IMG/VR virus record: IMGVR_UViG_3300003322_000136
Coordinates: 1 to 34,724 of that record
Length of the DNA: 34,724 nt
Strand: one strand, 5' to 3'
Source: a virus
A model generated the notes under the pieces. That model did not search any database. It was not told the origin of the DNA and saw nothing but the letters and a program-made list of their open reading frames with translations. The position numbers were made by a program, and so were the translations under genes. Every line of letters begins with the position of its first letter. Positions within the stretch are counted from its first letter, which is position 1. Below, one piece after another: positions 163 to 15,631 of this stretch.

Positions 163-232
163 TATAGGTTTGCTTGTTGGGCAAGGTCAAGTAATTCTGT
201 ACCTTTGCACTCAACCTTTCTATACTGCTCGT

Positions 233-988
233 ATGGATGACCTTAAACAACTGTTAGCGGACTGGATCCGCCAGGCGCGCAAGGGCGCCGGGCTTTCGCA
301 GGAAGACCTGGGAGCGAAGTTAGCACTCGAACTCGGTGACGAGCGCGGGTATACCAAGGCCAACATCTCTGGCTGGGAAAACCTTAAGCATAGCCCAAGC
401 CTGAAGCAGGTGATGGCAATCGCGAAGGTCACGGGCGCCAGCCTTCCTCCGTCGATCTTGAAGCCGATGCTGTCAGGCGAACCAGGCACTACGGCGGGCC
501 CAGCGGCTGCGAGCGCAGCTCTTCTACCACCTGGCGCGAAACCAATTCGAATCGGTGACGAACCGGACACGATTCCCATCCGCTTCGTTAAGCTCAAACT
601 GCATGCCGGGATAGCCGGTTACGAGACGGTGCCTGAGTCAGAGGACGGCGGCATGCTGTCGATGCCCCGGGCGGTGGTTGAGAAGCACAACCTCGTCCCG
701 TCGCATCTGCTTGCCCTCCGCGTTTCGGGCTGCAGCATGGAGCCCATGCTATTCGAGGACGACGTCGTGATTATCAACACGGCCGACCGGCGACCAATCA
801 GCCGTGAGGTGTACGCCCTCAACTTCGATGGAGAGGCGTGCGTCAAGCAACTGCTTCATCAGGGCGGACAGTGGTACCTACACTCGTTGAACCCAGACTT
901 CGGGCCCATCAACATGCGCAGCGGGCACTGCGACATTGTAGGCCGCGTGATTTACCAGCCTGGACGGGTTGTGACCGGCCGCTTGTGA
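233..988 (+). CDS. LexA/CI-type phage repressor (HTH + S24 self-cleaving peptidase)
   Basis: Predicted 251-residue lysogeny regulator. The N-terminus is an XRE-type helix-turn-helix (about residues 8-65, with LSQEDLGAKLA and a NISGWEN recognition-helix region). The C-terminal half is an S24/LexA-like autoprotease: catalytic Ser168 in SGCSMEP and Lys205 in CVKQL, 37 residues apart exactly as Ser119/Lys156 in E. coli LexA, and candidate Ala-Gly cleavage sites at 125-126 or 128-129. Such repressors cleave themselves on RecA-ssDNA and so tie induction to DNA damage. I chose ATG 233, where the HTH domain begins; an upstream in-frame start at 170 would add 21 residues unlike the family. The gene points the same way as the early operon, rather than away from it as in lambda. 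No cro is visible beside it. Confidence 0.9.
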   Translation: MDDLKQLLADWIRQARKGAGLSQEDLGAKLALELGDERGYTKANISGWENLKHSPSLKQVMAIAKVTGASLPPSILKPMLSGEPGTTAGPAAASAALLPPGAKPIRIGDEPDTIPIRFVKLKLHAGIAGYETVPESEDGGMLSMPRAVVEKHNLVPSHLLALRVSGCSMEPMLFEDDVVIINTADRRPISREVYALNFDGEACVKQLLHQGGQWYLHSLNPDFGPINMRSGHCDIVGRVIYQPGRVVTGRL

Positions 989-3875: not shown

Positions 3876-4312
3876 CCAGCCAGCGCAAGGAATGGAGCAC
3901 CGACTATCTGCGTCAGGCGTTCGATGACGAAATCGAACTGGCATGGGCGATGCTGCGCCGTCGCTACGTCACGCCGAGCCCGATCGAGCCGCGCGGAGAT
4001 CTTCGTCCTGCTCCTCGCCACGGCGGTTCGCTGATCAGCCCAGGCGCCGCACGTCTGACATTTTCTGCAGGTGAGCCGGCGGCGCCTCCGCACTGGCGCC
4101 GCTCGTGGAGCGCAGCTGGAGCCCTGATTGCGAATCTCGGCCTGAGCATTCGCATCGACGCCGAAGAGGGCTGCGTCTCGGTCGGCAACGGCAGCCGCCG
4201 CCGTGACGTCACGGAATCGTATGCGGACCACCCCGATAAGGAATCTGCGATCTGCGCAGCGATCGTGCGCGCCGCGATCCGCGTGTGCAACGAAGCGCGC
4301 GAGCTGTACTAA
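3872..4312 (+). CDS. Early phage protein, unknown
   Basis: A 146-residue protein. The N-terminal part (TDYLRQAFDDEIELAWAMLRRRY) is helical and acidic/basic; the middle is Pro/Gly-rich and probably disordered; the C-terminal third is a compact domain ending in a helix with Cys residues. No known motif. Start overlaps the previous stop (ATGA). Confidence 0.7.
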   Translation: MTSQRKEWSTDYLRQAFDDEIELAWAMLRRRYVTPSPIEPRGDLRPAPRHGGSLISPGAARLTFSAGEPAAPPHWRRSWSAAGALIANLGLSIRIDAEEGCVSVGNGSRRRDVTESYADHPDKESAICAAIVRAAIRVCNEARELY

Positions 4313-4344
4313 CCCGAAGCACCTCATAACCACCGGAGATCACC

Positions 4345-4476
4345 ATGCGCTTCCGTATCACTATTCGAACCGCCGATGACGTCACGACTGATTCTGTGAT
4401 CGGCGACCGCGACCAACTGCTCGACGCTGCGTACGACGCCGGCGCTCTGGGCGTGACTCTGGTGGCCGAACAATGA
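4345..4476 (+). CDS. 43-residue early peptide, unknown
   Basis: A short acidic reading frame (MRFRITIRTADDV start) with a clear CCGGAG ribosome site 6 bases before ATG 4345 and a stop that overlaps the next ATG. The alternating hydrophobic pattern RFRITIRT followed by a helix LLDAAYDAGALG suggests a tiny beta-alpha fold. Good spacing and coupling on both sides support it as a true gene although it is very short. Confidence 0.65.
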   Translation: MRFRITIRTADDVTTDSVIGDRDQLLDAAYDAGALGVTLVAEQ

Positions 4477-4595
4477 ACGCCGCAACCATGAGTCGTGACC
4501 ACATTTCGGCCCGCTTGGCTTCGTACGGAATCCGCTGCGCCGCGGCGCTTGGACTGGCACTTTTGATCATCCTGAACAACGCGGGAACGCAATGA
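4473..4595 (+). CDS. 40-residue single-pass membrane peptide
   Basis: The frame starts at ATG 4473, overlapping the previous stop, and contains one hydrophobic stretch near the C-terminus (CAAALGLALLIIL). It ends in another ATGA overlap with the next small membrane gene. Function unknown; paired tiny membrane proteins in an early operon may act on the host envelope or in superinfection exclusion (speculative). Confidence 0.6.
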   Translation: MNAATMSRDHISARLASYGIRCAAALGLALLIILNNAGTQ

Positions 4596-4723
4596 TCCGC
4601 CGTCTCGCCACCGCAATGGTCGGTGTGATGGCTTTCATGATCTTCCTCGCCGAGATCCAGCGCATGGATGACGAAGCGGTAGATCGCACCGAACAGCAGC
4701 GCAACTTCAACGCGCCCCAATAA
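4592..4723 (+). CDS. 43-residue membrane peptide
   Basis: Starts at ATG 4592 overlapping the previous stop. The N-terminal half is hydrophobic after two Arg residues (TAMVGVMAFMIFLAEI), the C-terminal half is polar and charged, a topology expected for a small inner-membrane protein with a cytoplasmic tail. No recognised family. Confidence 0.6.
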   Translation: MIRRLATAMVGVMAFMIFLAEIQRMDDEAVDRTEQQRNFNAPQ

Positions 4724-4746
4724 CGACAACAGAAGGAATCAAAGAG

Positions 4747-5652
4747 ATGTGGTTTAAGAACCTGCAGGTGTATCGCCTTCCGCAAAACTGGGACATGACA
4801 GCCGATCGCCTGGCTGACGCCCTCGCCTCTCAGGCCTTCGTGCCAGCGTCCAGCAACGAACTGCTCCGCCAAGGCTGGAAAGCGCCGCGCGGCACGAGCA
4901 CGCCGCTCGTGCACGCCGTGAACGGTCAATTCCTGCTGACGCTCGCCACGCAGAAAAAGATCCTGCCGGCGAAAGCGGTCAACGAGCTGGTCGACCAGAA
5001 GGCTGCGGAGCTCGAAGAACAGCAAGGCTTCCCGCCGGGTAAAAAGGCCCGCAAGGAACTGAAGGAACGAGCTACCGACGAACTGCTGCCGCGCGCATTG
5101 CCAGTTACGAACTATGTGCATGCGTGGATCGACCCGGTTAACGGCTGGCTCGTCGTTGACTCCGGGAGCCCGACGAAGGCCGACGACGTCATCAAGTTCC
5201 TGCTGAAGGCCGTCGACAAGATGCCGCTCGAGTCGCTGCGTGTTCAGCGCTCGCCGGTAGCCGTGATGACTGCCTGGCTGAAGCAGGACGAATCGCCGTT
5301 CGACTTCGGCTTCGCTATCGATCAGGACGCGACGCTGTGCGCTATCGGCGAGGGCAAGGCTCAAGTCGGCCTCAAGCGTCACAGCCTGGATCCGGAAGAT
5401 ATCGGCCCCCACATCGCGGCCGGCAAGCAGTGTGTGCGTCTGGCGATGACGTGGAACAGCCGGATCTCGTTCGTCCTGACCGATGGCCTCGCGATCAAGA
5501 GCGTCAAGCCGCTGGACGTCATCAAGGAAAACGACGCCGTCATCCGCAGCGACGTCGAGCGCTTCGACAACGACTTCGCCCTCATGACCGGCGAGTACGC
5601 CAAGCTCCTCGCCGACCTGGTCGAGGCACTCGGCGGCGAGGTCCGGGGATGA
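4747..5652 (+). CDS. rdgC: Phage-encoded recombination-associated protein RdgC
   Basis: A 301-residue protein of the usual RdgC length (E. coli 303). The beginning MWFKNLQVYRL and the later GWKAPRG, VNGQFLLTL, KKILPA and LTGEYA-like C-terminus follow the RdgC family closely. RdgC forms a ring around double-stranded DNA and restrains RecA filaments; phage copies may limit RecA activity or protect phage DNA during recombination. It starts at ATG 4747 after an AAGGA site and is joined by ATGA overlap to the next small gene. No RecT, exonuclease or SSB gene is seen beside it. Confidence 0.93.
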   Translation: MWFKNLQVYRLPQNWDMTADRLADALASQAFVPASSNELLRQGWKAPRGTSTPLVHAVNGQFLLTLATQKKILPAKAVNELVDQKAAELEEQQGFPPGKKARKELKERATDELLPRALPVTNYVHAWIDPVNGWLVVDSGSPTKADDVIKFLLKAVDKMPLESLRVQRSPVAVMTAWLKQDESPFDFGFAIDQDATLCAIGEGKAQVGLKRHSLDPEDIGPHIAAGKQCVRLAMTWNSRISFVLTDGLAIKSVKPLDVIKENDAVIRSDVERFDNDFALMTGEYAKLLADLVEALGGEVRG

Positions 5653-5842: not shown

Positions 5843-6451
5843 ATGAACCACCAAAACGAAGCAACTGCTGCTCTGGGCGCCCCGATGGAAGGCGGATTTT
5901 ACGCGGGACGCTTCATGATCGATGGCGTTCCGTATGCACTGATCGTTGCCCCGAAGGCGGAAGGCGAGCGCTCCGATGTCGCTTGGCTCGATTCTGAAGA
6001 CCGCGTCGGCGGCGCCGACAGCTACTGCGACGGCATGCGGAACACGGTTGCGATGGCCGAAGCCGGCAGCGAGCTGGCCGACTGGGCGCGCGGACTAACG
6101 ATCAACGGCTTCACGGACTGGTATATCCCAAGCCAGGACGAGTTGGAGATCCTGTACCGCAACCTGAAGCCGACCACACGTCAGAACTACCTCTACGCGC
6201 GCTCCGGCGTCAACGCCTCGGCCGTGCCGCCGACCCATGCTTACACCGCCGACACGCCGGCGCAGACCGCGGCGCCGGACTTCGCTGCGGGCGGCGAGCA
6301 AGCGTTCGCAGACGAATGGTACTGGTCCAGCACGCAGCACGCTTCCGGCGCTGACTATGCCTGGTACCAGACCTTCGACTACGGCTACCAGCTCACCAAC
6401 TACACTTCGGCCGAGTTGCGCGCCCGCGCCGTCCGCAGATTCGCAATTTAA
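5843..6451 (+). CDS. DGR target protein 1 (DUF1566/C-type-lectin-like fold)
   Basis: A 202-residue protein whose C-terminal 36 residues are encoded by a variable repeat (VR1, 6333-6441). Residues around GFTDWYIPSQDELEILYRN and DEWYWSSTQHAS match the DUF1566/Lcl and formylglycine-generating-enzyme-like C-type lectin fold used by DGR variable proteins, and the ending RARAVRR is the usual buried C-terminal strand. Substituted positions lie in AWYQTFDYGYQLTNYT, the expected ligand surface. No signal peptide or membrane segment is seen, so its binding partner may be inside the cell or on a virion. Strong AAGGAG ribosome site. It is co-directional with target 2, avd and the reverse transcriptase. 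Confidence 0.92.
   Translation: MNHQNEATAALGAPMEGGFYAGRFMIDGVPYALIVAPKAEGERSDVAWLDSEDRVGGADSYCDGMRNTVAMAEAGSELADWARGLTINGFTDWYIPSQDELEILYRNLKPTTRQNYLYARSGVNASAVPPTHAYTADTPAQTAAPDFAAGGEQAFADEWYWSSTQHASGADYAWYQTFDYGYQLTNYTSAELRARAVRRFAI
6333..6441 (+). repeat. DGR variable repeat VR1
   Basis: 109 bases aligning without gaps to the template at 7485-7593. There are 15 differences, 14 of them at template adenines (changed to G, C or T); the only other is G to T at 6406 (template 7558). The first 14 and last 35 bases are identical; the G+C-rich 3' block (6407-6441) is the likely initiation-of-mutagenic-homology region. Confidence 0.95.
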
Positions 6452-6478
6452 CCCTTCATCCATTTTTCGGAGTCCCGA

Positions 6479-6940
6479 ATGACTACCATCACCCTCGCGG
6501 CCATCGAAGCCGCACACCAACAGGTCAGCGAAATGATCGAGGCCTTCAAGGCCCAGGCGCCGCGGATCGTACGAGTTCCCCAGGCGGAGATAGAGCTGCA
6601 GCCGGGCGAGCATTACGCCGGCGTCATCCTCGGCGACGACGGCGCGCCATCTCACCACCTGATCTTGCTGCCGGGCGATGTCGACGACGTCACCTGGGAT
6701 CAGGCGAAGGCGTTCGCGGCCGAGGTTGGCGGCGAGTTACCGACGCGGCGCGAGCAGTCGCTTCTGTTCGCCAACCTGAAGGACCAATTCGAGCAGCGTT
6801 ACTACTGGTCTGGCGAGCAGCACGCTTCCAACGCTGAGTATGCCTGGGACCAGAGCTTCGGCAACGGCTACCAGGACTACGACGGCGGCAAGTCGGCCGA
6901 GTTGCGCGCCCGCGCCGTCCGCAGATTAACCATTCAGTAA
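6479..6940 (+). CDS. DGR target protein 2 (C-type-lectin-like fold)
   Basis: A 153-residue second target. An N-terminal helix (about residues 5-28) is followed by a compact lectin-like domain: EHYAGVILGDDG, TWDQAKAFAAEVGGELPTRREQ, and YYWSGEQHAS before the variable segment encoded by VR2. It ends RARAVRRLTIQ like target 1. The two targets are clearly related over their C-terminal halves but differ in their N-termini. Start ATG 6479 follows CGGAG and lies 27 bases after target 1; the CCGAA of the short hairpin at 6466-6479 reaches its first base. No export signal. Confidence 0.92.
   Translation: MTTITLAAIEAAHQQVSEMIEAFKAQAPRIVRVPQAEIELQPGEHYAGVILGDDGAPSHHLILLPGDVDDVTWDQAKAFAAEVGGELPTRREQSLLFANLKDQFEQRYYWSGEQHASNAEYAWDQSFGNGYQDYDGGKSAELRARAVRRLTIQ
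6817..6928 (+). repeat. DGR variable repeat VR2
   Basis: 112 bases matching template 7486-7594 with 12 substitutions, all at template adenines, plus one extra codon (GGC) inside the template's AAC run (four AAC then AAG in the template; five variable codons then AAG here). The shared 3' block is identical through the final A at 6928. Confidence 0.94.
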
Positions 6941-6957
6941 TTTAGTCATTTTTCAGC

Positions 6958-7311
6958 ATGGCACTCCACACCCAGCTGCCGATTTACAAGGTCGCCTACG
7001 ACCTTCTCGACGTCGTCACGGACCTCGCCAAGAACATGCCGCGTGATTTCAAGGCATCGATAGGCGGGAAGATTCGGGACGAGGTCGTCGAGATCGTGAC
7101 CTTGATCTACCGGGCCAACGTGGCCCGGGAGAAGGCGGCCCACCTGCAGGATCTCATCGAACGCCTTCAGGTGGCTGAACTGCTGATTCGTCTCTCGCGC
7201 GACAAGCGCTTGATCTCGACAAAGCAATATGCCGCTGCGGTCGAACTGACGACGAGTATCGGCAAGCAGGCAAGTGGTTGGCGCCGTTCCGCATCGCCCG
7301 CTTCACGGTAG
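6958..7311 (+). CDS. avd: DGR accessory variability determinant (Avd-like)
   Basis: A 117-residue helical, basic protein of the four-helix-bundle Avd family (like 23S-intervening-sequence proteins): PIYKVAYDLLDVVTDLAKNMPRDFK, then two helices with EIVTLIYRAN and LQDLIERLQVAELLIRLSRDK, ending KQASGWRRS. Avd forms a barrel-shaped pentamer that binds the reverse transcriptase and the template RNA and is needed for adenine mutagenesis. It lies between the targets and the template, the canonical DGR order. The ribosome site is weak, perhaps coupled to target 2 termination 18 bases upstream. Confidence 0.92.
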   Translation: MALHTQLPIYKVAYDLLDVVTDLAKNMPRDFKASIGGKIRDEVVEIVTLIYRANVAREKAAHLQDLIERLQVAELLIRLSRDKRLISTKQYAAAVELTTSIGKQASGWRRSASPASR

Positions 7312-7484
7312 TCAAGGCTGCTATGACTGAGCGATTTTTTAATCTGGTCGTGCCGCTGGCTCATAAGGCCACCGCAATGCGCACCGCAGAAACTACCCGA
7401 CATAGTTCGGGCAGGTCTGGCGCAGTTCCCTCACTGATCGGCCGCACAGGCCTTCGGCGAGGCGACGTAAATAGCACGAATAAA
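7312..7484 (+). other. DGR spacer between avd and template repeat
   Basis: About 170 bases between the avd stop and the start of template homology. The reverse transcriptase frame stays open throughout (in-frame ATGs at 7323 and 7377), but the amino-acid sequence is low in complexity. In Bordetella phage DGR, the RNA upstream of the template is unmutated; the downstream spacer primes cDNA synthesis. I see no clear promoter. Confidence 0.5.
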
Positions 7485-7594
7485 CGCAGCACGCTTCCAA
7501 CGATGAATATGCCTGGAACCAGAACTTCAACAACGGCAACCAGAACAACAACAACAAGTCGGCCGAGTTGCGCGCCCGCGCCGTCCGCAGATTA
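7485..7594 (+). repeat. DGR template repeat (TR)
   Basis: 110 bases containing eleven AAC triplets, which in the target frame encode Asn-rich text (NQNFNNGNQNNNNK). AAC codons are typical of DGR templates because mutation of their two adenines can reach many residues and never gives a stop. The last 35 bases are identical in template and both variable repeats. The template also lies inside the open reading frame of the reverse transcriptase, in a different frame from that used by the targets. Confidence 0.96.
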
Positions 7595-8705
7595 TCCCGG
7601 TCGCCACCATGCTGACTTTTCATTCTCCGAACTCGTACAGGCGTATCTTGACTGCCGAAAAACGAAACGGAATTCGGCCAGCGCCGCCGCGTTCGAGCAG
7701 GATCAAGAGCGCAACCTGGCACGTCTACGCGACGAGCTGCTCGACGGCAGCTATCGGCCTGGCCGCTCCATCTGCTTCGTCATCACACGCCCGAAGCCGC
7801 GCGAGGTGTGGGCCGCCGAATTTCGCGACCGTATTGCACATCACCTGCTGTACAACCGCATCTCGCCGCGTTTCTACGCGTCGTTCATCGCCGACACCTG
7901 CGCCTGCATTCCTGGACGTGGCACGTTGTACGCGGCGCATCGTCTTGAGGCGAAGATCCGCGGCGCGTCACAAAACTGGAGCCGGCCGCTCTGGTATCTA
8001 AAGTGCGATCTGGCGAACTTCTTCGTCTCGATCGATAAGCGCGTGCTGTGGCAACAGATCGCCGCGCGCGTCACCGAACCTTGGTGGCTGTGGTTGGCCG
8101 GCGTAATCCTGTTCCATGATCCGCGCGAGAACTTTGAGCTTCGCGGCGACCCCAAGTTACTGGATCGGGTTCCGCCTCACAAGCAGCTGGCGTCTCAGCC
8201 CGGCCATCTCGGCCTGCCGATCGGCAATCTGTCGTCGCAGTTCTTCGCGAACATCTATCTCGACGCCCTAGACCAGCATGTGAAGCATCGAGTGCGCGCA
8301 CGTCATTACGTGCGCTACGTCGACGACTTCGTGCTCCTGCACGAGTCTCCCCAGTGGCTGAACGGCGCACTTGCCAGTATCGACGAGTTCCTGCCGACCC
8401 GCCTGGGCGCACGCCTTAATCCAACAAAGACGATTTTGCAGCCGGTGGCGCGCGGCGTTGACTTCGTGGGGCACGTCATCAAGCCATGGCACACGAAGGC
8501 CCGCCGGCGCACCGTCCATCAAGCCGTATCACGGCTTCTCAACATGGACGCGGACGACGTGTACGCGGCATCCAACAGCTACTTCGGAATTCTTCGCCAG
8601 TCGGATAGCAGTCATGCCGATCGAGCTCGCGTAGCGCGGGCAGTGTTACGGCGCAGCCACTCCGTCAATAAAGAATTTACCAAAGCGTATCGAAAATCCA
8701 AATGA
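7503..8705 (+). CDS. DGR reverse transcriptase
   Basis: Group-II-intron-like reverse transcriptase of DGR type. Motifs in order: PGRSICFVITRPKPREVWAA and FRDRIAHHLLYNRI near the N-terminus, CDLANFFVSID (motif A), IGNLSSQFFANIYLD (DGR-type motif with SSQ), YVRYVDDFVLLH (catalytic YVDD at 8316-8327), then LNPTKTILQ and FVGHVI. There is no maturase or endonuclease domain. The start is a problem: the family core begins near 7620 (FSFSELVQAYLDC), yet the only in-frame ATGs are at 7503/7509 within the template or further upstream. ATG 7609 is in another frame and would give MLTFSFSEL only with one more T in the TTTT at 7617-7620. The stop overlaps an in-frame ATG of the following gene. Confidence 0.95.
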   Translation: MNMPGTRTSTTATRTTTTSRPSCAPAPSADYPGRHHADFSFSELVQAYLDCRKTKRNSASAAAFEQDQERNLARLRDELLDGSYRPGRSICFVITRPKPREVWAAEFRDRIAHHLLYNRISPRFYASFIADTCACIPGRGTLYAAHRLEAKIRGASQNWSRPLWYLKCDLANFFVSIDKRVLWQQIAARVTEPWWLWLAGVILFHDPRENFELRGDPKLLDRVPPHKQLASQPGHLGLPIGNLSSQFFANIYLDALDQHVKHRVRARHYVRYVDDFVLLHESPQWLNGALASIDEFLPTRLGARLNPTKTILQPVARGVDFVGHVIKPWHTKARRRTVHQAVSRLLNMDADDVYAASNSYFGILRQSDSSHADRARVARAVLRRSHSVNKEFTKAYRKSK

Positions 8706-9964: not shown

Positions 9965-10115
9965 CGATCTGCAGGCCGTCCTGGCGTTCCTGATGGGCGA
10001 GGCGCCGCTCGAAGGCGTCATGTTCGGCAAGAAGCATCCGACCAAGGCCGGCTTGTTCTGGTGGCGCTTGAACCTGCGCGCGGCGCTGGCCAAGGCGAGA
10101 GAGGCAGCGCAGTAA
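9957..10115 (+). CDS. 52-residue early protein, unknown
   Basis: A small protein (MNDDLQAVLAFLMGEAPLEG start) with a GLFWWRLNLRAALAKAREA helix at the end. It overlaps the stop of the preceding gene by 8 bases, and its TAA shares its last base with the next ATG. Such dense packing supports it as a real gene. Confidence 0.7.
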   Translation: MNDDLQAVLAFLMGEAPLEGVMFGKKHPTKAGLFWWRLNLRAALAKAREAAQ

Positions 10116-10852
10116 TGGACTTTTACACCGGCTGCCATCAGCCATCCGATGCGAAGCGCTTGGTGCGGCCATTCATCAGCCGCAACCGGCTGCGCGGTCG
10201 GAAGTCGGGATTTGAGGTAGGCGACTGGATCATGGACTCAGGCGCCTTCACACAGATCCTAAAGCATGGCGGCTACACCGAAGGCGTCGATGAGTACGCG
10301 CAGCAGATCAAGCGCTGGTCGAACAACGGCAACCTTCTGGCAGCTGTAGCGCAGGATTACATGTGCGAGGCCCACATGCTCAAGATCACCGGCATGACGA
10401 TCCCCGAGCATCAGCGCCTGACGGTCGAGCGGTATGACGCACTGATCGCCTGTGACACCGGCGGCGTCTACATCCTGCCGGTACTGCAGGGCTACGAACC
10501 GAGCGACTACGTTCGCCACATCGAAATGTATGGCGACCGGCTGAAACAAGGCATGTGGGTCGGCGTCGGGTCGGTCTGCAAGCGCAACGGGAACCCGGCG
10601 GCCATCGTGCGTGTGCTGCAGGCGATCAAGGACGCACGACCAGACCTGCGCCTGCATGGCTTTGGGCTGAAGTCGACGGCGCTGGCATCGCCACACATCA
10701 CGGCGTTGCTGCACACGGCGGATTCGATGGCGTGGAGCTTTGCAGCGCGACGAGAGGGCCGGAACCCGAACGACTGGCGCGAGGCGACACGGTATGCGGA
10801 AAACATTCAGGCGCGGCTACACCATCAGCCGCCCCAGCAATCACTATTTTGA
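10115..10852 (+). CDS. DpdA/TGT-like deazapurine DNA base-exchange enzyme
   Basis: A 245-residue protein with the hallmarks of the tRNA-guanine transglycosylase superfamily in its short phage form (DpdA-type). DSGAFTQI matches the TGT DSGGF substrate loop, AVAQDYMCE takes the place of the FDEC region, GVGSVCKR matches the glycine loop that binds the base, and HTADSMAWSF carries the likely nucleophilic Asp. DpdA enzymes swap guanine in DNA for a 7-deazaguanine such as preQ0, making phage DNA resistant to restriction. No queuosine-pathway genes (queC/D/E, folE) are present in the window, so it would have to use host precursors. Start ATG 10115 overlaps the preceding TAA. Confidence 0.78.
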   Translation: MDFYTGCHQPSDAKRLVRPFISRNRLRGRKSGFEVGDWIMDSGAFTQILKHGGYTEGVDEYAQQIKRWSNNGNLLAAVAQDYMCEAHMLKITGMTIPEHQRLTVERYDALIACDTGGVYILPVLQGYEPSDYVRHIEMYGDRLKQGMWVGVGSVCKRNGNPAAIVRVLQAIKDARPDLRLHGFGLKSTALASPHITALLHTADSMAWSFAARREGRNPNDWREATRYAENIQARLHHQPPQQSLF

Positions 10853-14361: not shown

Positions 14362-14601
14362 ATGGCAGCGGTATTTCTGAGTGATGAAGAGATCGCGCAG
14401 CTGACCGAGAAAAAACGTCATTCGACGCAACGAAAAATCCTTAATGCGCTTGGAATCGCGCACAAGGTCAGGCCGAACGGCACGCTAGTCGTGCTGCGGT
14501 CTCACGTCGAGAAGCTACTGGGCGGGCATGTCGCCGGGCCAGTAAAGAAGGAACCTGAACCAAACTGGGATGCATTGAATGGGACGAGAAAGAAGCAGTG
14601 A
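14362..14601 (+). CDS. DUF4224 protein, excisionase candidate
   Basis: A 79-residue protein with the DUF4224 signature: VFLSDEEIAQLTEKKRHSTQ, then NALGIAHKVRPNGTLVVLRSHVE, a small winged-helix-like fold usually placed directly before phage integrases. It overlaps the integrase start by 23 bases, so the two are co-translated. It probably works as a recombination directionality factor or DNA-binding helper (inference from position). ATG 14362 has a GGGAGA site. Confidence 0.85.
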   Translation: MAAVFLSDEEIAQLTEKKRHSTQRKILNALGIAHKVRPNGTLVVLRSHVEKLLGGHVAGPVKKEPEPNWDALNGTRKKQ

Positions 14602-15631
14602 ATTGGCGGGACTCCCGCCGCGGTGGAGAGTTGTCCGTGGCGTCTATTACTATCAGGTGCCGCAAGATCAAAAAGAAAGCTGGGATGGTAAGGCGACCTT
14701 TCGCCTCGGTGACACACTAGACGAGGCGTACGCAGTCTGGACCCAACGGGTCGGGCATCATGGCGAAGCGAAGACGATCGGCGACCTGCTCGACCGCTAC
14801 ACTCGAGAGGTCGTACCCGGCAAAGCTCCCCGCACTCAGACCGAGAACCTGAGGGCAATCATGCGCCTGCGTGCGGTGTTTGGTAAGCGATCGATAACGT
14901 CAATTCGCCCACAGCTGATTTACCAATATGCTTCTAAGTCGGTGACGCGCACGCAGGGCCGTAGGGAGATTCGGGTCTTTTCCCATGTCTACACCAAGGC
15001 GGTGGAGTGGGGTTTGATTGATCGCCACCCGTTCAAGGGTGAGGTCAGGCTGGAGGGTGATCGCCCGCGTACGCGGTACGTCGAGGATTGGGAGTTCGAA
15101 GAATGCCTCAAGCTGGACAGCAAGCGAAAGAAAGGCAGCGTGCTGATGATCCAGGCATACCTGCGCATGAAGCTGCTTACGGGCCTGCGCCTTGGTGACT
15201 TGTTGCGACTGACAATGGACTCGCTTCGCGAAGACGGCATCCATGTGCTGCCCCGGAAGACGGCTCACACCACAGGCAAGCGGATCATTATCGAGTGGTC
15301 CCCTGCCCTTCGCGATGCTGTCGAGATGGCGAAGCAGTCACGCCCGTTTGTTGGCGGCGACTACCTGTTCTGCAACCGCCGCGGCGAATGCTACTTCGAC
15401 GACGAGCAGGACACGTCATATGGCTGGAATTCTATGTGGCAACGCTTCATGGAGCGCGTGCTGGCCGAGACGAAGGTCAAGGAGCGATTCACGGAGCACG
15501 ACATCCGGGCGAAGGCTGCGAGCGATGCAGAGACCCTGGAGCATGCGCAAAAGCTTCTAGCGCACGCTGACTCGAAGATCACAGACAGGGTCTATAGGCG
15601 AAAGCCCGAGAAGGTCAAACCGCTGCGATAG
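14579..15631 (+). CDS. int: Tyrosine-family phage integrase
   Basis: A 350-residue site-specific recombinase. The N-terminal arm-binding/SAM-like region includes TIGDLLDRYTREV; the catalytic domain shows Arg in LLTGLRLGDLLRL, HDIRAKAASD (second Arg of HxxR), His in LLAHADSKITDR and the nucleophilic Tyr in RVYRRK twelve residues from the end. It is the last gene of the rightward operon, and tRNA-derived attachment sequence begins about 60 bases beyond its stop. Co-translated with the DUF4224 protein. Confidence 0.96.
   Translation: MGRERSSELAGLPPRWRVVRGVYYYQVPQDQKESWDGKATFRLGDTLDEAYAVWTQRVGHHGEAKTIGDLLDRYTREVVPGKAPRTQTENLRAIMRLRAVFGKRSITSIRPQLIYQYASKSVTRTQGRREIRVFSHVYTKAVEWGLIDRHPFKGEVRLEGDRPRTRYVEDWEFEECLKLDSKRKKGSVLMIQAYLRMKLLTGLRLGDLLRLTMDSLREDGIHVLPRKTAHTTGKRIIIEWSPALRDAVEMAKQSRPFVGGDYLFCNRRGECYFDDEQDTSYGWNSMWQRFMERVLAETKVKERFTEHDIRAKAASDAETLEHAQKLLAHADSKITDRVYRRKPEKVKPLR

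Follow-up and report, generated by a model that had tools for sequence, protein, structure and literature searches.

The window analysed here, the whole of a 34.7-kb virus record (IMGVR_UViG_3300003322_000136), carries a diversity-generating retroelement (DGR) at positions 5843-8705, with all of its parts on the + strand (Table 1). A preliminary description of this DNA had proposed a complete DGR in which one template repeat (TR) feeds two targets, in the order target1-target2-avd-template-reverse transcriptase (RT) on one strand. The order is correct by open reading frames (ORFs) and profile matches, and the RT, Avd, lectin-fold targets, and adenine-specific mismatches between the TR and its variable repeats (VRs) are all present. 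Two features had been missed: a structured RNA, RT-15, that touches the 5′ side of the TR, and an RT reading frame that is open from 7278 through RT-15 and the TR. RT-15 pairs with the 3′ end of the TR, an arrangement that probably serves to prime complementary DNA (cDNA) synthesis.

Table 1. Features of the DGR and of the surrounding window (HTH, helix-turn-helix; pLDDT, predicted local distance difference test)
Feature	Position	Strand	Evidence or remark
Target 1, 202 aa, Lcl_C / C-type-lectin-like domain	5843-6451	+	Pfam PF07603 E 8.2e-12; PHROG 4245
VR1 in target 1	6332-6441	+	15 differences to TR, 14 at A
Target 2, 153 aa, C-type-lectin fold	6479-6940	+	AlphaFold pLDDT 94.2
VR2 in target 2, one AAC-derived codon longer than TR	6817-6931	+	12 A differences plus 3-nt insertion
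avd, 117 aa	6958-7311	+	PF22296 E 1.1e-15; PHROG 3206 Avd 5.1e-35
RT-15 structured RNA (RF03018), 5′ module of template RNA	7292-7486	+	169.9 bits, E 2.3e-41
RT-15 clamp strand (UUAAUCUG)	7339-7346	+	covariation 7340:7594
Conserved ATG inside RT-15, candidate RT start	7377-7379	+	ATG in 114/134 loci
TR, also read in +1 frame as N-terminal leader of RT	7484-7597	+	
TR 3′ end (CAGAUUA), pairs with RT-15 7340-7346	7588-7594	+	
RT domain	7608-8705	+	PHROG 1423 E 8.6e-120; Pfam RVT_1 1.8e-16; PDB 8ub7 1.7e-38
S24/HTH repressor	170-988		
RdgC	4747-5652		
DpdA-like protein	10061-10852		PF23859 E 8e-40
Tyrosine integrase	14579-15631		
Structural genes		opposite to DGR	

Scans recovered 268 relatives of the element in viral contigs and 339 in genomes, and 80 of each were taken for analysis. 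The RT-15 family ranges over Burkholderiales, Pseudomonas, and other phages and prophages, with Magia, QDWS, Cruim01, LPPA56, SC_8_H2H8, Haboob, and phPA-G among the named phages. A DGR with two targets fed by one template is ordinary; the TR is accompanied by two VRs in 152 of 218 loci, by three in 35, and by four in 5, and DGRs with multiple VRs were described in a 2012 report (PMC3521204).

The two targets are paralogous C-type-lectin-fold proteins, and the VRs are placed at their C-termini (Pfam Lcl_C, AlphaFold/Foldseek). The model of target 1 has a pLDDT of 81 and finds 8q4e as its best PDB match (E 3.9e-3). Target 2 falls below the Pfam cut-off, and its fold was assigned from the predicted structure, for which Foldseek returned the Lcl C-terminal domain 8q4e as the best match (E 4.8e-5), then intimin and mannose-binding protein. 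Profile searches for a DGR RT and Avd returned both (PHROG 1423; PF22296, PHROG 3206), with an Avd score below the cut-off of the NF033474 model. The RT carries the expected YVDD (RYVDDF) and SQ (IGNLSSQFFAN) motifs, and its top PDB match, 8ub7, is a DGR RT entry. Against retron-type models, retron St85 scores 40.8 with a cut-off of 235, and a DGR RT is the best match. Homologues of target 1 also occur in Pseudomonas phages PMG1, phi_D3, Medea1, Aurca01, and PMBT3, yet these phages are absent among the RT matches listed; their targets may persist after loss of the DGR or be diversified by a different element.

Alignment of the three repeats bears out the claim that both targets have been diversified with adenine specificity. 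An ungapped alignment of TR 7484-7593 with 6332-6441 gives the 15 differences first counted for VR1, 14 of them at template A and one a G>T change. In VR2 (TR 7486-7597 against 6817-6931), all 12 core differences fall at A, as described, but a CGG insertion had been overlooked. A T>A change at 7595 is the sole non-A difference and lies beyond the repeat core. The insertion is accounted for by one AAC unit more in VR2 than in the present TR (GAC TAC GAC GGC GGC AAG, against five AAC codons and AAG in the TR), and on this alignment the inserted letters and their neighbours also depart from the template at A only. With 34 A among 110 template bases, a binomial estimate made by hand puts the chance of 14/15 and of 12/12 each below about 1e-6. 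The same pattern holds family-wide, where 455 VRs show 5688 mismatches at A against 258 at other bases, and the rate per site in the first 174 VRs is 0.41 at A against 0.0075 elsewhere.

A few relatives (e.g., L028, L039, L040, and L141) have gained a single unit much as VR2 has gained its extra codon (6872-6895), and the CAG(AAY)n runs of the TR range from n = 0 to 4. Slippage of the AAC repeat as a regular length diversifier was rejected, as in-frame unit gains were found in only a few of 266 non-redundant VRs; given this rarity, we treat the extra unit as a curiosity. In L011, L021, L023, L037, and L040, the VR adjoining avd has single-base indels that would shift the target frame, by either assembly error or RT error.

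Closely related loci show recent diversification. In L014 and L016, a 1219-bp cassette is identical, and one of the three VRs differs at 14 sites, all of them template A. When near-identical pairs are pooled, 56 differences fall at A and 1 at G, and recent VR replacement is seen in the pairs L014/L016, L007/L008, and L010/L021. This pattern supports activity in nature for relatives of the window DGR.

RT-15 was recognised with the Rfam covariance model well above its gathering threshold of 82 bits. It overlaps the final 20 nt of avd, and covariation across 70 aligned loci supports its helices. An RT-15 profile returned 231 loci, of which 227 have enough 3′ sequence and form the usable set. In 218 of these there are TR/VR pairs, and the TR begins no more than about 8 nt from where RT-15 ends (median -2); most of the other nine are without upstream room for VRs. 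On the far side, only ∼8-15 nt separate the TR from the RT domain (family median 8 nt), which leaves no space for a 3′ spacer (Sp) of the type found in phage BPP-1. Three loci have inserts between TR and RT (308, 535, and 310 nt), and in these RT-15, TR, and clamp remain together.

We note that L069 has a DNA methyltransferase (PHROG 954) inserted at 4150-4989 between TR and RT; it forms an in-frame fusion with the RT-15/TR leader, from which it seems to take its start codon. L061 has a 91-aa gene of no known family at 4717-4992, likewise between TR and RT. At L154 (6657-7100), RT-15 and TR/VR occur with no RT within 8 kb downstream, which makes it a candidate for a decayed or trans-served template. 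Seven DGRs near this RT lineage (L273, L274, L277, L279, L283, L286, and L093) have a TR about 17-54 nt before the RT and no Rfam RNA match, and are candidates for more 5′-type template RNAs.

The clamp of the window consists of seven contiguous pairs, UAAUCUG/CAGAUUA (7340-7346/7588-7594), and unconstrained RNAalifold folding of RT-15 plus TR from 70 loci joined 7339-7346 to 7588-7595. Covariation was tested in 134 non-redundant loci with 20,000 shuffles. The 7340:7594 pair forms in 96% of the loci against 44% expected, a value reached in none of the 20,000 shuffles (maximum 60%), and its types are U-A in 50, G-C in 39, C-G in 28, U-G in 6, and A-U in 5. It is the sole outstanding cell in a 12 × 14 matrix (next +0.15), its type has changed about 28 times on the RT tree, and its G/C state agrees in 8/8 independent comparisons (p 0.008). 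Where the VR base is unlike the TR base at the clamp, the TR base pairs in 92.5% and the VR base in 31%; by this comparison of sequences, the VR copies are not kept complementary to RT-15. A distant locus with 45% RT identity, L269, which was recognised by the Rfam model only, has an 8-bp clamp in other letters (AUCAUUUG/CAAAUGAU). Beside the clamp strand, G7347 is invariant in 88 RT-selected loci.

The same layout is seen with RT-16, a second and independent Rfam orphan, which scores above its cut-off in 103 genomes out of 371 from a single archaeal phylum. The TR adjoins the 3′ end of RT-16, and the 5′ end of RT-16 pairs with the sequence directly after the TR. The mean longest helix is 7.2 bp against 5.6 in re-paired loci (0/20,000 permutations); two control regions gave 0.013 and 0.41.

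The window RT could start at ATG 7323, 7377, 7503, or 7509, and the stretch from the TR end to the RT domain contains no ATG, GTG, or TTG. An RT starting after the TR was rejected, with 118 of the 134 loci lacking a start codon there; starts occur in RT-15 only in 26 and as a TR ATG only in 17. On the tree, 39 of 43 length changes between TR end and RT domain are multiples of 3, and 4 shift the frame. From these frame-preserving indels we conclude that translation includes the TR, in a frame shifted by one from that of the target, and gives the RT a leader rich in Thr, Ala, and Pro. Overlap of a TR with the RT ORF is noted in the 2012 report (PMC3521204); the frame-preservation test is an addition of the present analysis. 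The equivalent of ATG 7377 is in the RT frame in 100/134 loci and open in 98, at distances of 183 to 252 nt. It was rejected as a universal RT start, being in frame in those loci only, with some clades able to start inside the TR only. The RT has its start codons within RT-15 or the TR, so that one stretch of RNA is both template and mRNA.

Taken together, we consider it likely that the window holds a working-type phage DGR in which RT-15 is clamped to the TR 3′ end, cDNA is primed from RT-15, and two targets are diversified from one adenine-rich template. Sequence comparison itself shows the divergence at adenines, the fixed junction of RT-15 with the TR, the covarying clamp and its lack in the VR copies, and in-frame reading from the TR into the RT. 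The clamp would hold the template start against RT-15, to which RT-Avd would bind. It places the invariant G7347 at a retron-like priming site, from which we infer that RT-15 is a 5′ priming platform. Synthesis of cDNA would begin at the clamp from a 2′-OH of RT-15, most likely that of G7347 or G7346. The TR would be copied leftwards from about G7587, the TR base directly adjoining the helix (the clamp ends one base 3′ of it), with errors opposite A, and the cDNA would then replace VR1 or VR2. RT-15 would act from the 5′ side as the Sp acts in BPP-1, in the topology of a retron, and RT-Avd bound to the template/mRNA would probably restrain its own translation.

Several observations weigh against this assignment. 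The clamp core AUCUG/CAGAU is almost invariant, and changes in its TR side (CAAAU, CAGCU, CAGAA) are mostly uncompensated in the main family, with only L269 compensating; tested by itself, the five-letter core shows no compensation, the covarying pair sitting just outside it. The 7341:7593 pair forms in about half of the loci (0.53 against 0.47 expected), the window has a mismatched U-U at 7339:7595, and some RT-15 loci were chosen by a motif containing AAUCUGG. A stem-loop 3′ of the VR as in BPP-1 was not found; 235 VR flanks score no better than shuffled ones in a scan that recovers the 8-bp stem of BPP-1 as a positive control, and a BPP-1-like stem-loop there was rejected. The signs of activity come from relatives, the window sequence being one genome, and the priming nucleotide, the binding of RT-15 by Avd and RT, and the cDNA ends are predicted from sequence.

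The same features could be read as a cis-regulator of RT translation, in which RT-15 and the clamp bury an AAGG and ATG 7377 and the pairing tunes expression, unrelated to priming. The AAGG at 7365-7368, a possible Shine-Dalgarno sequence, falls across the loop and the 3′ arm of a hairpin in RT-15, and both it and the ATG sit within RT-15 helices. Where the ATG is in the RT frame, it is so at more than 20 distances, and the leader frame of L069 runs into the inserted methyltransferase. However, RT-15 and the clamp are kept although the ATG is out of frame in 34/134 loci and some starts lie only in the TR, the clamp end coincides with the template 3′ end, and the same clamp recurs with RT-16 in archaeal loci that are unrelated. 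We regard regulation as the sole role of the pairing as unlikely.

Still less probable, in our view, is an ordinary BPP-1-type DGR with a spacer 3′ of the TR within RT coding sequence, RT-15 being an upstream stabiliser or cDNA terminator. The structured priming RNA of BPP-1 does lie 3′ of the TR (PMC12875486), and in controls at equal scale RF03022 of BPP-1 and RT-14 of BalMu-1 were both placed there; VP58.5 and phiARM81mr likewise have an open RT frame that includes the TR, with about 110 nt after the TR. In the RT-15 family, however, the RT codons 3′ of the TR show no synonymous constraint (observed/expected about 1, against 1.8 inside the TR end), and a hidden Sp inside the RT gene was therefore rejected. 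The family tolerates 308-535 nt of inserted sequence between TR and RT, and it is RT-15, not the downstream sequence, that covaries with the TR 3′ end. With no 3′ room, the BPP-1 rule of 3′-spacer priming cannot apply to the family. That the cassette is a fossil of past activity that no longer works, as the one non-A change of VR1 and the VR2 unit absent from the present TR might suggest, is very improbable given the intact state of all ORFs, the catalytic YVDD, the seven contiguous clamp pairs, the identity of VR and TR at nearly all non-A sites, and the relatives with recent VR replacement.

The S24 repressor and tyrosine integrase of the window mark the phage as temperate. The DpdA-like protein near the DGR belongs to a DNA deoxypurine modification family.

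If RT-15 is indeed a priming platform, RT-15 and RT-16 would both serve as template RNAs in a second DGR class, which would provide a function for two Rfam orphans and make priming testable through base swaps. The clamp would explain how the template is told from a near-identical target, the VR copies not being kept complementary, and RT-15 with its TR would constitute a compact template module for targeted diversification. The use of the TR as the RT N-terminus raises the question of how one RNA is divided between message and template. A 5′ RNA with a clamp found no mention in the DGR literature covered, a selection short of some recent papers and of the one behind the RT-N motifs, so that an earlier mention is possible.

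Among known systems, the DGRs of Burkholderia phage Magia, Shewanella phage QDWS, and Pseudomonas phages Cruim01, LPPA56, and Haboob are like that of the window in gene order, two VRs, and RT-15 5′ of the TR, with RTs 57-64% identical over 69-99% of the ORF. They differ in a TR of about 90-105 nt and in other start codons, and the Magia annotation names just one target. We note that OK094664 and OP650936 (Shewanella phage QDWS and 'Hujiaoplasma phage zrk29-1') are both 47,902 long and match nearly identically; their named hosts are from different phyla, and one host label is probably wrong. DiGReF group 3 and the multi-VR DGRs, in the part of PMC3521204 covered, appear without a structured 5′ RNA or a clamp at the TR end; in the window family, translation of the TR/RT overlap is evident from frame-preserving indels.

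To our knowledge, DGR priming has been worked out in detail for BPP-1 only. There, synthesis uses an adenine inside the 3′ spacer as primer, within the end of the TR (PMC12875486). The window shares with BPP-1 the RT, Avd, a TR upstream of the RT, a GC-rich repeat end, and A-specific transfer to a C-type-lectin VR. Whereas BPP-1 has one target (the tail protein Mtd), a 144 nt TR-brt region holding RF03022, and a stem-loop 3′ of the VR, the window has two targets away from tail genes, RT-15 5′ of the TR with no 3′ spacer, no stem-loop, and a TR read in the RT frame.

In retrons, the RNA ends are paired (a1/a2), and priming occurs from a guanosine 2′-OH beside the helix (PMC8989520). The retron order msr-msd-RT is like that of the window, with a structured RNA 5′ of the template, the RT downstream, a conserved G by the helix, and a helix that joins the 5′ part of the RNA to the template 3′ end. 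Unlike retrons, the window has a DGR-type RT, Avd, TR/VR, and adenine mutagenesis, with a clamp of 7-8 bp; 2′-5′ branched msDNA is a retron feature, and the likeness of the window is known from sequence alone. If the likeness is real, a common RNA design would link DGRs and retrons, whether inherited or convergent. On balance, we lean toward two topologies of DGR RNA, one primed from a 3′ spacer (BPP-1, RT-14) and one with a 5′ RNA and clamp that is primed as in a retron, represented by RT-15 in phages of Pseudomonadota and by RT-16 in archaeal genomes.

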